DNA of 36,297 bases from Microcoleus sp. FACHB-DQ6 (lineage in GTDB: Bacteria > Cyanobacteriota > Cyanobacteriia > Cyanobacteriales > Microcoleaceae). The stretch's first letter is position 1, and the number at the start of each line of letters is the position of its first letter. The stretch is from assembly GCA_014695175.1 (NCBI GenBank), contig JACJNV010000126.1, positions 1-36,297 of the forward strand, in the 5' to 3' direction. This document shows positions 20,916 through 27,961 of the stretch, in pieces. Both the position numbers and the translations under genes were made by a program. Under the pieces are notes generated by a model. The model was given only the letters and a program-made list of their open reading frames with translations, searched no databases and was not told where the DNA came from.

Positions 20916-21284
20916 ATGAGACAAATATCACCCAAAGATATTGTATGGATCGGAAGTTCTTTGAACGATGTTAAAGAATTTCCTGAAGATGTACGTGGCA
21001 TAATGGGCTATGCTCTGTATCTAGCACAAACAGGAGGAAAACACCAATCTGCTAAACCTCTCAAAGGGTTTGGAGGTACAAAAGTTTTAGAAATTACCGA
21101 TGACTGTGATGGGGATACCTATCGAGCAGTTTACACGGTAAAGTTTGCAGATACAGTGTATGTTTTGCACGCTTTCCAGAAAAAGTCTAAAAAAGGAATT
21201 GCTACACCGCAACAAGATATTAAGTTAATCCAAGAGAGGCTAAAACGAGCTCAAGAACATTACGAAGAGTTCAAGAGTAAGTAA
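20916..21284 (+). CDS. higB: HigB-like type II toxin (RelE/Gp49-like, DUF891)
   Basis: 122 residues with the Gp49/DUF891 layout of HigB-type mRNA interferases: KPLKGFGGTKVLEITDDCDG, then YRAVYTVKFADTVYVLHAFQ, KKSKKGIATPQQDIKLIQER and LKRAQEH. Toxins of this group cleave mRNA on the ribosome; here the activity is inferred. It precedes the antitoxin gene, the usual higBA order. The ATG at 20916 has no strong ribosome binding site, which would limit toxin yield. Confidence 0.85.
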   Translation: MRQISPKDIVWIGSSLNDVKEFPEDVRGIMGYALYLAQTGGKHQSAKPLKGFGGTKVLEITDDCDGDTYRAVYTVKFADTVYVLHAFQKKSKKGIATPQQDIKLIQERLKRAQEHYEEFKSK

Positions 21285-21286
21285 GA

Positions 21287-21403
21287 ATGGAATTAGTAGT
21301 GATAAGAGTAGATTATATTTCTAAAGAAGCTGGAAATAGACGGGTTCTTATCACTACTTTTTCAGGAATAACTAAGACCAGGAAAAAAAGGGGGAAATCA
21401 TGA
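21287..21403 (+). CDS. 38-codon ORF between toxin and antitoxin (tentative)
   Basis: An ATG at 21287, two bases after the toxin stop, opens 38 codons (MELVVIRVDYISKEAGNRRV, then LITTFSGITKTRKKRGKS) ending in a TGA that overlaps the antitoxin ATG (ATGA). The frame spans a 13-bp hairpin. It has no family resemblance, and its ribosome binding site is poor. It may be a leader whose translation opens the hairpin and couples antitoxin synthesis to toxin translation, or a chance frame. Confidence 0.3.
   Translation: MELVVIRVDYISKEAGNRRVLITTFSGITKTRKKRGKS
21295..21358 (+). promoter_or_regulatory. Long perfect hairpin between toxin and antitoxin
   Basis: AGTAGTGATAAGA (21295-21307) pairs perfectly with TCTTATCACTACT (21346-21358) over a 38-nt loop, followed by TTTTC. 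It lies between the toxin stop (21284) and the antitoxin start (21400). It could be an attenuator or a processing/stability site that separates toxin from antitoxin expression. Confidence 0.6.
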
Positions 21404-21729
21404 GTAAGGAGATCGATATTCAAGTTAGTAGTGGCAATATATTTGCTGATTTGGGTCTGCCTAATTCTGATGAAATGCTGATGAAGGCTGAATTGGTACG
21501 ACAGATAACTGAGATCGTTAGTCAAAGGAAACTGAATCAAGTTCAAGCAGCAGAAGTATTAGGAATTGACCAGCCAAAGGTGTCAGCGTTGATGAGAGGA
21601 AAGCTGACAGGTTTTTCAACAGAAAGGTTGTTTCGATTTTTAAATGCGTTAGGGTGCGATGTGCAAATTGTGGTGAAGCACAAGCTAGAATCGCCCGCGG
21701 CCGCAGGAATTAGTGTTGTTAGCATCTGA
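21400..21729 (+). CDS. higA: HigA-like antitoxin, XRE-family regulator
   Basis: 109 residues with an XRE helix-turn-helix at ~33-75: LVRQITEIVSQRKLNQVQAA, EVLGIDQPKVSALMRGKL and GFSTERLFRFLNALGCDVQI, the arrangement of HigA2-type antitoxins encoded after a Gp49-like toxin. It should neutralise the upstream toxin and repress the promoter at 20823-20851. A strong GGGGG ribosome binding site lies 6 nt before ATG, in contrast to the toxin, which favours antitoxin excess. Confidence 0.88.
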   Translation: MSKEIDIQVSSGNIFADLGLPNSDEMLMKAELVRQITEIVSQRKLNQVQAAEVLGIDQPKVSALMRGKLTGFSTERLFRFLNALGCDVQIVVKHKLESPAAAGISVVSI

Positions 21730-22132: not shown

Positions 22133-23905
22133 ATGCTGGGTCGTACCCTCCGCAATCATTATCAAATTATCAAAGACTTGGGAGAAGGCGGTTTTGGCGA
22201 CACATACCTCGCCAAAGATTTAGACTTACCCGGACATCCCCACTGCGTTGTCAAACATCTTAAACCGAAAGACCCCAATCCCGCCATTTTACTAATTGCC
22301 AAAGGCTTATTCGACAAAGAAGCCGAAACGCTGCATAAATTGGGTAAGCTACACGACCAAATCCCCAGCCTTTCCGCCCACTTTGAGGAAAATGGCGAAT
22401 TTTATTTGGTGCAAGATTTTATCGAAGGACATGACCTTACCAAAGAACTGATTCTCGGTAAAAAATCAAGCGAATCCCATACTATTAAATTATTGCACGA
22501 GATATTAGAAGTTTTAGCCATTGTTCATCAGCAAAATGTGATTCATCGCGACTTGAAACCTGCTAATTTAATGCGCCGCCAAGATGGTAAAATTATCTTG
22601 ATTGATTTCGGGGCGGTCAAGGAAATTGGCACGATGGTTGTTAATGCTCAAGGACAAACTAGCTTCACCGTTGGCATTGGTACTTCGGGTTATATGCCCA
22701 GCGAACAAGCGAACGGCAAACCTAAACTGTGTAGCGATATTTATGCAGTGGGGATGATTGGGATTCAAGCATTGACTGGTCAACCTCCTGATACCTTACC
22801 AGAAGATCCGCAGACGGGAGAAGTTATTTGGCGAAATCGGGCGCAAGTTAGCAATAACTTAGGGAATATTTTAGATAAAATGGTGCGCGACCATTTCAGT
22901 CAGCGCTATCAAAATGCAGGGGAAGCATTACAAGCAATTTTATCTTTGTCGCGGCCTTCCCCGCCACCACCACCGCCACCACCGCCACCGACACGAACGG
23001 TGTATCAAAGTTTGGGGAACAAATCGCCTCAACCTGTAAAAGTATTGTCAAATTCCCTAAAAACAGTTCAATTTGAAACGGTGACAGTGAATTCAAAGGG
23101 GGAAATCATCAAGCGCAGCCAAAGTCAAGCACAGGTTTTTACAGAAACTATCGCCAATGGCGTTACTTTAGAGATGATGGCAATTCCTGGTGGCAGTTTC
23201 GTCATGGGTTCCCCCAATACAGAAGCAGACCGATATAACCAGGAAGGGCCGCAGCATACTGTTAACGTCGCTGCTTTTTTTATGGGAAAATATGAGGTGA
23301 CTCAGACTCAATGGCGTGCGGTGGCAGGTTTACCGAAAGTCAAGATTGACCTCAAGGCTAATCCTTCTAATTTTAAAGGTGATGATTTGCCTGTTGAGCA
23401 AGTATCTTGGGAGGATGCTACAGAGTTTTGTGCGAGGTTATCTCGACTTACTGGACGCAAGTATAGACTGCCTAGTGAGGCGGAATGGGAATATGCTTGT
23501 CGTGCAGGAACCACTACTCCATTTCATTTTGGGGACACAGTTACCCCGGATTTAGTTAATTATAGAGGGAATGAATCCTACGCTTCTGCACCGAAGGGAA
23601 TCTGGCGTGAAAAAACAACTGCTGTGGGTATTTTTCCGCCTAATAGCTTTGGACTTTATGATATGCACGGGAATGTCTTTGAATGGTGTCAAGATATTTT
23701 GCACAAGAATTATAACGGTGCGCCGACTGATGGTAGTGCTTGGGAAACAGGTGGAGATAGTGAAAACCGGAGGCTGCGTGGCGGTTCCTGGCTCAACCAG
23801 CCGCTCTTTTGCCGTAGTGCCTATCGTGGCAGGTATTCGGCGGGCCCTCGCGACAGCTACCTCGGTTTTCGCGTTGCGGTTGCTTCGGTTTCTTCGTCGT
23901 CCTAG
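22133..23905 (+). CDS. Ser/Thr protein kinase fused to an FGE/sulfatase-modifying-factor-like domain
   Basis: 590 residues. N-terminal Hanks-type kinase: LGEGGFGDTYLAKD (P-loop, 16-29), VVKHLK (Lys41), VIHRDLKPANLM (catalytic Asp140), LIDFGAVKEI (DFG) and SGYMPSEQ (APE variant). A proline-rich linker (ten consecutive Pro) at about residue 280 leads to a C-terminal SUMF1/FGE-like domain from ~350: MMAIPGGSFVMGSP, YEVTQTQWRAV, PVEQVSWEDATEFC, YRLPSEAEWEYACRAGT, NSFGLYDMHGNVFEWCQD, RGGSW and GFRVAVAS. All kinase motifs needed for activity are present. The C-terminal 35 residues look hypervariable (see the 23777-23884 entry). No membrane helix seen, so probably cytosolic. A hairpin terminator overlaps the stop. 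Confidence 0.9.
   Translation: MLGRTLRNHYQIIKDLGEGGFGDTYLAKDLDLPGHPHCVVKHLKPKDPNPAILLIAKGLFDKEAETLHKLGKLHDQIPSLSAHFEENGEFYLVQDFIEGHDLTKELILGKKSSESHTIKLLHEILEVLAIVHQQNVIHRDLKPANLMRRQDGKIILIDFGAVKEIGTMVVNAQGQTSFTVGIGTSGYMPSEQANGKPKLCSDIYAVGMIGIQALTGQPPDTLPEDPQTGEVIWRNRAQVSNNLGNILDKMVRDHFSQRYQNAGEALQAILSLSRPSPPPPPPPPPPTRTVYQSLGNKSPQPVKVLSNSLKTVQFETVTVNSKGEIIKRSQSQAQVFTETIANGVTLEMMAIPGGSFVMGSPNTEADRYNQEGPQHTVNVAAFFMGKYEVTQTQWRAVAGLPKVKIDLKANPSNFKGDDLPVEQVSWEDATEFCARLSRLTGRKYRLPSEAEWEYACRAGTTTPFHFGDTVTPDLVNYRGNESYASAPKGIWREKTTAVGIFPPNSFGLYDMHGNVFEWCQDILHKNYNGAPTDGSAWETGGDSENRRLRGGSWLNQPLFCRSAYRGRYSAGPRDSYLGFRVAVASVSSSS
23777..23884 (+). other. Candidate DGR variable region (VR) at the 3' end of the kinase-FGE gene
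   Basis: Codons 549-584. The framework RGGSW, CRSA, R.R and GFRV matches FGE-type DGR targets, in which alternating residues are Asn in the template (WNN...CRSANRN...NNN). Here those positions read Leu, Leu, Phe, Tyr, Gly, Tyr, Ser, Pro, Asp, Ser and Tyr (codons ctc, ctc, ttt, tat, ggc, tat, tcg, cct, gac, agc, tac). All but tcg end in C or T, as AAC/AAT codons would after adenine mutagenesis. The GC-rich CTCGGTTTTCGCGTTGCGG stretch that follows (23861-) could be the IMH. No template repeat or reverse transcriptase is in the window. Confidence 0.6.
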
Positions 23906-23928
23906 TTTTCCCCGCGAGGACTCTTTTT
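23899..23928 (+). terminator. Terminator of the kinase-FGE gene
   Basis: GTCCT (23899-23903, overlapping the stop) pairs with AGGAC (23917-23921) over 13 nt, followed by TCTTTTTT. The stem is short but the T run is good. A pyrimidine-rich tract continues to about 23978. Confidence 0.45.
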
Positions 23929-24325
23929 TGCTCTTTTACCCTTTTACTCTTTACTCTTTTTTCTTTTTCACTTTTTTTGTCGTCTCTGGTGACTCGATTT
24001 ATTTTTGGCACTCCTGGATGCACTCCCGACAAAGAAACCGGGTTTTTTACTTAATCTGTGGAGTACAGCGAAGGATATCCTCAAAAAACCCGGTTTCTGG
24101 CCACCTGTGCGTAAGTTCTGTTTGGGAAAATCACTGTCATTGTGTCAATGCTTTCTGTATAGACAAGTCTGCTGAAATAGTCTGGTTTATTTACGGAGGA
24201 GTTGATGCTGATTTAGGATGGGTTCCAGCGTAGTAAACTATTTTTTTTTTCAGATTCACCGCCGAACAGATTATAATTAGAAATATTGATTTTTCTCACG
24301 AATAGTCGCATAGGAGATTTACAAA
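23929..24325. other. Spacer after the kinase-FGE gene, with a palindromic repeat
   Basis: No gene is supported; the open frame to 24233 is a continuation of an out-of-frame reading. It contains the pyrimidine-rich tract up to about 23978 and a perfect 16-bp inverted repeat, AGAAACCGGGTTTTTT (24033-24048) and AAAAAACCCGGTTTCT (24083-24098). The 5' end of the following gene carries an AGGAG-type ribosome binding site. Confidence 0.55.
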
Positions 24326-24790
24326 ATGAATAACCTATTAGCAGAAACTTTTGCCACCGTCTCTCAACTACCCGAAGCAGAACAAAATGCCATAGCATCC
24401 TTAATTTTAGACAAGATATCAGCACCAAGAGTCGCGCCTTTCCTCATTTCTCAATCAGACATCGAAACCCTAGAAAAATCATACATTTTCCGAGACGAGA
24501 CAGAAGTCATTGACTTTATTAACAAATATCCGTTTTTACTTCCCGTTGTGCTAGAAGCACCCGTTCACATTAGCAATTATTTTCCCGAACAAAAACTATT
24601 ACTTCAAGTCATCAATGACCCCGAAATTCCTAACTATGTTCATCTGGTTCTCTCAATCATCTTGACAGACCTCGATCCCGATGAAGCAATGGATAGAGAA
24701 GACGAATTGCGTAAAAATTGGTCTAGGGGATTATCCCATGAAATTCGGGAGCATTTTTATACGATTTTGGAATATACTGATGAGTTTTGA
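24326..24790 (+). CDS. Partner protein of a HEPN-domain gene, function unknown
   Basis: 154 residues. The N-terminus (LAETFATVSQLPEAEQNAIA, then SLILDKI) resembles the short helical segment of many cyanobacterial antitoxin-like proteins. The remainder (EVIDFINKYPFLLPVVLEAP, then EQKLLLQVINDPEIPNYVHL) is a compact alpha/beta domain I cannot name. The stop overlaps the start of the HEPN gene by 11 bp (24780-24790), so the two are translationally coupled. Antitoxin or sensor is a reasonable guess from context only. A GGAG ribosome binding site precedes the ATG. Confidence 0.6.
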   Translation: MNNLLAETFATVSQLPEAEQNAIASLILDKISAPRVAPFLISQSDIETLEKSYIFRDETEVIDFINKYPFLLPVVLEAPVHISNYFPEQKLLLQVINDPEIPNYVHLVLSIILTDLDPDEAMDREDELRKNWSRGLSHEIREHFYTILEYTDEF

Positions 24791-25157
24791 TTGGTCGCAA
24801 TACCTAAATTTAGCAAAAGAACTTGCTGGTCAAGCAACTATTCCTGCTGAACAGGAGGCGCGATTGAGGGATGCTATCAGTCGTTCCTATTATGCTGCTT
24901 TTATCTTAGCGCGGAACTATTTGCGAGATAAACAAGGTCATTCCCTGCCAAAAAGTAGCGATATTCACCGCTATGTTTGGCAAGAATTTGATATTAATCC
25001 TGACTCAAGATATCAATTAATTGCCGATAATTTAGCAGTGTTGCGCCGATATCGAAATCAAGCAGACTATGACGATAATTTTCCCTTATTATCTGCGATT
25101 GCTACTATTGCGATCAAGCGTTCTCAAGAAATAATTTATAACCTAAATAATCTCTAA
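24780..25157 (+). CDS. HEPN-domain protein (possible toxin)
   Basis: 125 residues from the ATG at 24780; the frame extends upstream but that start has no signal and would duplicate the neighbour's coding region. HEPN features: a helix with AISRSYYAAFILARNYLRDK and a second with LAVLRRYRNQADYDD. The canonical R-X4-6-H motif reads R-N-Q-A-D-Y, so the His is replaced by Tyr, as in other RNxADY members I remember. Coupled to the upstream partner by an 11-bp overlap. HEPN proteins are often RNase toxins in two-gene modules; whether this subfamily retains activity is uncertain. Confidence 0.75.
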   Translation: MSFDWSQYLNLAKELAGQATIPAEQEARLRDAISRSYYAAFILARNYLRDKQGHSLPKSSDIHRYVWQEFDINPDSRYQLIADNLAVLRRYRNQADYDDNFPLLSAIATIAIKRSQEIIYNLNNL

Positions 25158-26491: not shown

Positions 26492-27961
26492 ATGACTGAA
26501 GCCTCGGATTTTTCAAATGTCGATCGCGAATTAGATGACACAATTTTAAGCTTCGCAGACATTCAGGCAGAACTCAACCTGCGCCACGCTAAAGATGCTC
26601 TGCGAGATATAGTAGAAAATCTCGACTTGACAGTTCAAGAGCGAACTGGACTGGAACCGGAAATTGGCGGGTTGGAGAAAATGCTCGACAAGCTAGAGCG
26701 CGCTTGCGTGCAAATAGCTGTGTTTGGGATGGTGGGAAGGGGAAAATCTTCGGTTTTGAACGCGCTGCTAGGTCAAAATGTGTTTGAAACTGGCCCGACT
26801 CACGGGGTGACTCGCACCACGACTATCGGTCAGTGGGATGTCGGAGAGGGAATTGATGAGAATTTGCCCGATGGCTTACGCCCCGCTACGCTACGACTTT
26901 CGCCAGTTATTTACCGTTTGTCGCAAGTTGAATTAATCGACACTCCGGGAATAGATGAAGTTGACGGCGAAACTCGCGAACTTTTAGCCCGCCGCGTTGC
27001 TAAACAAGCAGATTTGATTTTGTTTGTCGTGGCTGGCGACATTACAAAGGTGGAATACGCAGCACTTTCGCAGTTGCGGGAAGCCGGAAAACCGATGTTA
27101 TTAGTGTTTAATAAAATTGACCAGTATCCTGATGCAGACAGGCTGGCAATTTATCATAAAATTCGAGACGATCGCGTGAGAGAATTGTTGTCTCCCGATG
27201 AAATTGTGATGGCGGCGGCTTCGCCTTTGACGGCGAGGGCGGTGCGCCGTCCCGACGGAAGTATGGGCGTGCAAATGACTCGCAGTTTGCCACAAGTGCA
27301 AGATTTAAAATTAAAGATTTTGGAGATTTTAGACCGAGAAGGCAAATCTTTGGTCGCGCTGAATACGATGCTCTGTGCGGGGGATATTAACGAGCAGTTG
27401 GTGCAGCGAAAAATGGAAATTCGAGATGAGGCGGCTAATCGAATTATCTGGAACGCGGTAATGACTAAAGCGGTGGCGATCGCACTTAATCCAATTACTG
27501 TAGTTGATATTCTTAGCGGTGCCGTAATTGATGTGGTGATGATATTAACTTTATCTAAAGTTTACGGCATTGCGATGACGGAAGCGGGCGCGGTGGAATT
27601 GCTGCAAAAGATTGCGATTAGTATGGGGGGGATTACGGCCGGTGAATTGTTGGCTAATTTTGGCTTGAGTTCTTTGAAAGGATTCTTGGGTTTAGCGACG
27701 CCAGCGACGGGGGGTTTGGCTTTAGCGCCTTATTTGTCTGTGGCGGTGACGCAAGCTGCGATCGCGGGGGTTTCTTCCTACGGTATCGGTCAAGTTACTA
27801 AGGCTTATTTGGCTAATGGTGCTTCTTGGGGAGATGATGGGCCAAAGGCTGTTGTGAGCAAGATTTTGTCTTCTTTGGATGAGGAGTCTATTTTAAATCG
27901 GATTAAGGAAGAGTTGCGGGCTAAGTTGGATTTGGGAAGTGTGGAAAAACAGAAATCTTAG
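26492..27961 (+). CDS. GTPase with C-terminal DUF697 (Era-like/dynamin-like)
   Basis: 489 residues. A ~70-residue helical N-terminus precedes a GTPase domain: G1 FGMVGRGKSSVLNALLG (~78-94), G2 THGVTRTTT, G3 ELIDTPGIDE (Asp150), G4 NKIDQY (~207). A mostly helical, partly hydrophobic C-terminus (~300-460) with ALNPITVVDILSGAVIDVVM and GGITAGELLANFG matches DUF697, which is membrane-associated in related GTPases. Family knowledge: such proteins are GTP-dependent regulators or assembly factors, role undetermined in cyanobacteria. Single gene; a repeat unit lies just 3' of it. Confidence 0.88.
   Translation: MTEASDFSNVDRELDDTILSFADIQAELNLRHAKDALRDIVENLDLTVQERTGLEPEIGGLEKMLDKLERACVQIAVFGMVGRGKSSVLNALLGQNVFETGPTHGVTRTTTIGQWDVGEGIDENLPDGLRPATLRLSPVIYRLSQVELIDTPGIDEVDGETRELLARRVAKQADLILFVVAGDITKVEYAALSQLREAGKPMLLVFNKIDQYPDADRLAIYHKIRDDRVRELLSPDEIVMAAASPLTARAVRRPDGSMGVQMTRSLPQVQDLKLKILEILDREGKSLVALNTMLCAGDINEQLVQRKMEIRDEAANRIIWNAVMTKAVAIALNPITVVDILSGAVIDVVMILTLSKVYGIAMTEAGAVELLQKIAISMGGITAGELLANFGLSSLKGFLGLATPATGGLALAPYLSVAVTQAAIAGVSSYGIGQVTKAYLANGASWGDDGPKAVVSKILSSLDEESILNRIKEELRAKLDLGSVEKQKS

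Follow-up and report, generated by a model that had tools for sequence, protein, structure and literature searches.

A probable orphaned DGR variable region at the 3' end of a kinase-FGE gene in Microcoleus

The last ~100 bases of a kinase-FGE gene of Microcoleus sp. FACHB-DQ6 are very probably a DGR variable region (VR) left by mutagenic retrohoming. The cassette of reverse transcriptase (RT), Avd and template (TR) behind it has probably since been lost from this lineage, and the VR is most likely a remote DGR target that has become orphaned and frozen. The gene lies on a stretch of 36,297 nucleotides (contig JACJNV010000126.1, assembly GCA_014695175.1, forward strand), which as a whole is called the window.

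The kinase-FGE gene and its surroundings

The gene and its parts have the following positions in the window:

22133..23905, + strand: very probable DGR target gene for kinase, linker and FGE/C-type-lectin-like domain, 590 amino acids (ORF, Pfam)
22160..22912, + strand: protein kinase domain PF00069, residues 10-260 (Pfam, E=3.6e-31)
22961..22990, + strand: ten-proline run, linker separating the kinase and the FGE domain
23171..23878, + strand: FGE-sulfatase / C-type-lectin-like domain PF03781, residues 347-582 (Pfam, 2.3e-58)
23777..23866, + strand: core of the very probable VR, RGGSW ... LG (template and orthologue comparison)
23773..23877, + strand: segment matching the template of congener G008 (BLAST)
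23916..23923, + strand: GAGGACTC, 3' of the stop codon, probable landing-site motif

The kinase domain of ORF 22133-23905 contains HRD and DFG motifs. The framework RGGSW-LNQPLF-CRSA-Y-R-G-R-YSAGP-R-DSYL-GFRV is in frame at the C-terminus of the ORF (23777-23875), and the VR makes up the last ~35 codons of the FGE domain, near the 3' end of the gene. Named proteins most like the kinase-FGE protein come largely from Microcoleus and other Oscillatoriales, and the closest solved structures by sequence include PvdO, TvpA (2y3c, E=7.8e-24) and SUMF1 (E ~1e-20).

SUMF1, a catalytic formylglycine-generating enzyme, belongs to the same domain family. When it is aligned with the window protein, one of the catalytic FGE cysteines is retained and the other position is Asn. 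In SUMF1, position 336 is Ser in the 2aft chain and Cys in the wild type. Since the residue aligned to position 336 is Asn and falls within the variable stretch, FGE catalysis is unlikely, and the alignment suggests that the domain is more likely of the binding than of the catalytic type.

Upstream of the kinase gene (20916-21729) there is a pair of Gp49-like (PF05973) and HTH_37 genes, which may be a HigB/HigA-type toxin-antitoxin module. Downstream (24326-25157), an uncharacterised ORF is followed by a HEPN-domain gene, and in several congeners the two likewise adjoin the kinase gene. A Dynamin/MMR_HSR1-type GTPase with DUF697 is found at 26492-27961.

Adenine-specific change in the VR

The best available template, TR8, belongs to a complete DGR in congener G008 and not to the own genome. 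Relative to TR8, the window VR is changed at 16 of 25 adenines but at only 8 of the remaining 77 positions (Fisher p=3.3e-7), the changes per template base being A 16/25, C 1/24, G 3/29 and T 4/24. TR8 has 11 AAY/ATY codons; the window changes positions 1-2 in 10 of these and retains the exact third base in 10. Such retention (10/11) was matched by 0/20000 random draws of third bases from the same ORF and by 50/20000 codon shuffles over the same positions. The initial annotation had taken tcg as the single exception among substituted codons ending in C or T, and this was mistaken, because the template also reads TCG there and the variable stretch additionally holds CAG and CCG.

In true VR/TR pairs, non-A mismatches are few. 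Anabaena sp. 90 and Fischerella NIES-4106 have DGRs on plasmids, and three pairs from these, over 90 bases, have 0, 0 and 1 of them, with 17, 13 and 16 mismatches at A. A third plasmid locus (L017, Microcystis) was dropped, as the stretch retrieved contained neither a VR/TR pair nor an annotated RT. Within the genus, the internal VR of G009 differs from its own TR at 1/77 non-A and 13/25 A positions, and the VR of G007 from its own TR at 2/77 and 12/25. The 8/77 of the window is above the 0-2 of true pairs, so that either TR8 is related to the donor or the VR has drifted afterwards; TR8 itself is not the donor of the window VR.

A fixed FGE paralogue of the own genome with the same framework (C291, locus L249) served as negative control together with its orthologues L135, L136 and L137. 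VR-like residues in this group are nearly fixed across species (NDHPPNCRSACRLRYQPDCKASIVGFRV). The group shows ordinary drift, with differences of the orthologues from C291 at codon positions 1-3 of [0,0,6], [0,1,6] and [1,1,3], i.e., 15 of 18 at third positions. Against TR8, the control group differs at 14-16/25 A and 28-31/77 non-A positions (p=0.03-0.07) and retains 5-7 of the 11 third bases. A weak lean to A is thus not enough by itself, and the evidence is in the strength of the window pattern and not in the fact that a pattern exists.

The same locus was compared in five syntenic orthologues, the comparison being between species and not between strains of one species. Identities to the window of the kinase, the VR and the downstream non-coding DNA, respectively, are:

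G015: 97.1, 58.9 and 96.3%
G004: 95.1, 63.3 and 96.1%
G020: 95.0, 62.2 and 97.4%
G023: 93.8, 61.1 and 94.7%
G024: 95.0, 80.0 and 92.9%

Of the 24 TR-adenine columns, 12-18 differ between the window VR and a given orthologue, against 6-20 of the 66 remaining columns (p 1.8e-5 to 6.6e-4). The bias to adenine columns is present in all 15 pairwise comparisons of the six species (p 6e-6 to 0.016, the pairs not being independent). The initial annotation had named even drift over orthologues as the counter-case; changes in the VR instead concentrate on template-adenine columns, while those in the C291 control are mostly at third codon positions. Its central proposal, a DGR VR at 23777-23884 on a kinase-FGE fusion, is borne out by the A-specific differences from congener templates and by the syntenic hypervariability.

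Between species, the VR is also more divergent at its non-A positions than the flanks are (e.g., 17/66 with G004). We read these extra differences as copies from different template families; paralogue gene conversion would also fit. The G015 VR differs from the G007 template at 18/25 A and 2/77 non-A positions, and the VR of G018 at the syntenic locus fits the G007/G009 template family with 2/77 non-A differences. The G024 VR fits TR8 (14/25 A, 3/77 non-A). Templates of different families have thus apparently supplied the same position. The stretch 23867-23935 is 91-97% identical, except in G024 (72.5%), which has a TR8-type tail.

FGE core identity is 61-91% across the syntenic orthologues and linker identity 87-93%, except for 53.5% in G023, where the kinase and the FGE domain are in separate open frames. 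With such values (FGE core 61-91%, linker 54-93%), recombination has also reshuffled the gene. Over the N-terminal part of the FGE domain (23161-23440), four of the five orthologues align to the window at 61-64% identity, with kinases at 94-97%, an apparent module exchange. Two kinase-FGE genes stand in tandem at the syntenic locus of G021 (L151), and that of G025 (L155) has an additional FGE gene; these arrangements suggest local duplication of targets.

DGR components in the own genome and in the genus

The own assembly (G000) is a 6.72 Mb draft of 402 contigs, 98.26% complete, and no template, DGR RT or Avd was found in it. The RVT_1 profile gives three matches, which were rejected as DGR RTs since they carry the TPQGGVISP or TPQGGVVSP motif, which we take as the group II intron type of RT. 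A two-sequence DGR-RT profile, built from the Anabaena and Fischerella plasmid loci above, detects DGR RTs in 5 of the 29 genomes of the genus set, and in G000, itself one of the 29, only the same three intron-type genes. The Avd search, positive in 4 of the 29 genomes, gave 0 matches in G000. DNA searches with two congener templates gave 4 and 3 matches in G000, all of them VR-bearing FGE genes and none a TR. The initial annotation had placed the RT and TR elsewhere in this genome and proposed a search for a TR-like copy and a DGR RT; the remote VR stands, whereas the search returned only FGE-gene VRs and group II intron RTs. Absence of the cassette from G000 is likely, and unproven because the assembly is a draft of 402 contigs.

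Seven FGE-domain matches are present in G000. The window and the copies on C59, C395 and C55 have RGGSW...CRSA...GFRVAVASVS in common, while the interior varies; the version on C184 is related. A-bias is strong in C395 (p=9.8e-9) and in C184 (p=5.6e-8 with TR9, the template of G009), and weak in C59 and C55 (p=0.004 each). C184 differs from the G007 template at 16/25 A and 4/77 non-A positions, a cleaner fit than that of the window (8/77). A DGR hidden past the contig end beside C184 was considered and rejected, as the downstream bases give no sign of a cassette: most of the 413 bases, up to base 301, match DNA that follows the orthologues in genomes lacking a DGR RT, and the last ~110 have no match among the sequences compared.

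The genus set comprised 29 genomes, own included. Eight pass E<=1e-20 with the DGR-RT profile. The RTs of G004, G021 and G023 and a second match in G010 were dropped, being without the SSQ/TSQ motif, which we take to mark DGR-type RTs. Such RTs are present in 5/29 genomes (G001, G008, G009, G010 and G015), where that of G010 was counted from a 157-residue fragment at a contig end, its motif not checked, with Avd adjoining. Avd is present in 4/29 genomes, and the G008 query matches the model DivGenRetAVD (NF033474). Asn-codon-rich templates adjoin Avd and RT in G008 (TR8) and G009 (TR9). At L142:4302 in G009, the target gene inside the complete DGR has a stop codon within its VR.

A further template, 96% identical to TR9, is found in G007 beside a target gene. 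There, neither Avd nor RT was found in genome searches or in the 8.5 kb fetched around the template. G007 has a decaying cassette with the mutator gone, a visible intermediate of cassette loss. Target gene and template, the latter in GAGCACTC form, are located on G007:C155 (locus L230).

TR8 has DNA matches in 25 of the 29 genomes and TR9 in 23. Of the 25 genomes with a TR8 match, 21 are without a DGR RT, such a match alone being no proof of a VR. Scoring against the templates covered 54 distinct sites, with regular-expression misses and VRs of other length left out; a re-check added missed sites in RT-bearing genomes and in G003. Among 51 standard-length non-template sites, 14 have <=5/77 non-A mismatches to one of the three templates and 9-18/25 A changed. 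Adding the internal VR of G009 gives 15/52 close-fit sites, which is no unbiased rate, because loci were fetched for likeness to the templates. Thirteen of the 15, in ten genomes, are in genomes without a DGR RT; the remaining two come from G015 and G009.

In all three templates, GAGCACTC stands 52 or 65 bases from GGTTTTCG, downstream of GFRV. The spacing is 52 bases in the window vs 65 in TR8. Among 45 other distinct sites, 23 (window included) have GAGGACTC, 22 have neither form and none has GAGCACTC. One marker base sets the templates apart from those VRs in which the motif is retained. The terms IMH and IMH* come from phage BPP-1, which has a downstream hairpin or cruciform. From these bases, the difference between GAGGACTC and GAGCACTC looks like one of IMH vs IMH*-like form. 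A BPP-1-like hairpin downstream of the VR received no support from DNA folding of window 23880-23935 (z=0.59), and two template-side stretches folded for comparison (z -0.34 and -0.45) have no significant hairpin.

Origin of the VR and alternatives

In the proposed mechanism, reverse transcription of an RNA copy of the template would have placed random bases wherever the RNA has adenines; the mutagenised cDNA would then have replaced the 3' end of the kinase-FGE gene, the conserved downstream sequence with GAGGACTC being the probable landing site. After cassette loss, the VR would have been inherited as a frozen recognition surface on the lectin-like domain, whose binding face is where the altered residues are predicted to lie. 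The attached Ser/Thr kinase would report binding, the lectin-like domain probably gating the kinase.

Two alternatives concern the cassette-loss part only, and both overlap with the preferred explanation. The first, active diversification in trans by a cassette on an unassembled stretch or plasmid, so that the VR is still being rewritten, is unlikely. A draft of 402 contigs at 98.26% completeness leaves room for it, plasmid loci show that cyanobacterial plasmids can carry DGRs (Vallota-Eastman et al., 2020; PMC7517822), and C184 fits a congener template with 4/77 non-A differences; however, TR, Avd and RT were each searched in G000 and not found, and the own VRs differ mutually at non-A bases, which is not expected from one common active template. 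Moreover, VRs of G003 (6 contigs, 100% complete) resemble TR8, with 5/77 and 8/77 non-A differences, and that genome gave no DGR-RT match.

The second, that the VR was made elsewhere and the already diversified gene was acquired, through transfer or recombination, from a relative with an RT, is likewise improbable. It would agree with a recombinant FGE core and with same-locus VRs that fit different families: those of G015 and G018 fit the G007/G009 family, and those of G024 and, more loosely, the window fit TR8. The case of G020 is against it: its FGE core is 86-90% and its downstream DNA 97% identical, yet its VR only 62%, so that change is focused on the VR itself. Finally, gene conversion among FGE paralogues with positive selection on a binding loop and no DGR is very improbable, for although domain exchange occurs (the FGE core mosaic, 61-64% at 23161-23440 in 4/5 orthologues) and the fixed C291 control is also weakly A-leaning (p=0.03-0.07), C291 orthologues drift ordinarily, selection alone predicts no template-adenine change with exact third bases retained (10/11), and neither the match to templates adjoining RT and Avd nor the template/VR marker base is predicted.

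The remote VR of the window, probably orphaned and frozen, has relatives among known systems. Cyanobacterial remote DGR targets including kinase-CLec fusions are described by Vallota-Eastman et al. (2020; PMC7517822), and those described there have, like the window gene, a C-terminal CLec module with the VR, an N-terminal Ser/Thr kinase and a location distant from the RT. For such fusions, ligand-relieved autoinhibition or substrate choice was proposed in the same study. Its 52 genomes all have a complete DGR cassette, as far as its account of them goes, whereas RT, TR and Avd were not found in the window genome, and hypervariability is shown here, in difference to the set as described, at one syntenic locus across congeners. 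all3226 of Nostoc PCC 7120 has remnant TR-VR homology and no proximal RT, according to the same source.

Leftover DGR targets are also described in strains of Treponema denticola that lack both RT and TR (PMC4891356). As characterised there, their VRs are recognised, like that of the window, by mostly-adenine differences from templates of relatives; they belong to a different phylum, most of the targets have lipoprotein signals, and strains of one species were compared, as opposed to species of one genus here. TvpA (T. denticola variable protein 1, 2y3c) is of the same domain family as the window protein, and its C-terminal stretch aligns with the window VR, but it is a spirochaete chain of 294 residues, compared with 590 including a kinase in the window. 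To our knowledge, TvpA has no kinase domain.

Targets diversified in trans are described in Thiohalocapsa PB-PSB1 (PMC10907252), and the metagenome survey of Roux et al., by its described design, would miss remote targets (PMC8144416). DGR surveys, as described in these sources, begin from the RT, so that targets in genomes with a lost RT go unreported. The literature thus already contains kinase-lectin DGR targets as well as leftover targets in RT-less genomes; the useful addition is the syntenic series, with its different templates and its loss of the mutator.

For the genus as a whole, a wider reading may be entertained tentatively: DGR cassettes from two or more template families, transient and exchangeable, would rewrite common kinase/FGE-type sensors, landing at the same locus via a GAGGACTC-type site, and the cassettes would then be lost, leaving a frozen, species-specific recognition repertoire. 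The genus spans complete DGRs, a template without RT and VR-only genomes, at a common syntenic kinase locus. The series allows asking whether unrelated templates use one landing site, and how often hypermutated signalling receptors become fixed after the mutator is lost.
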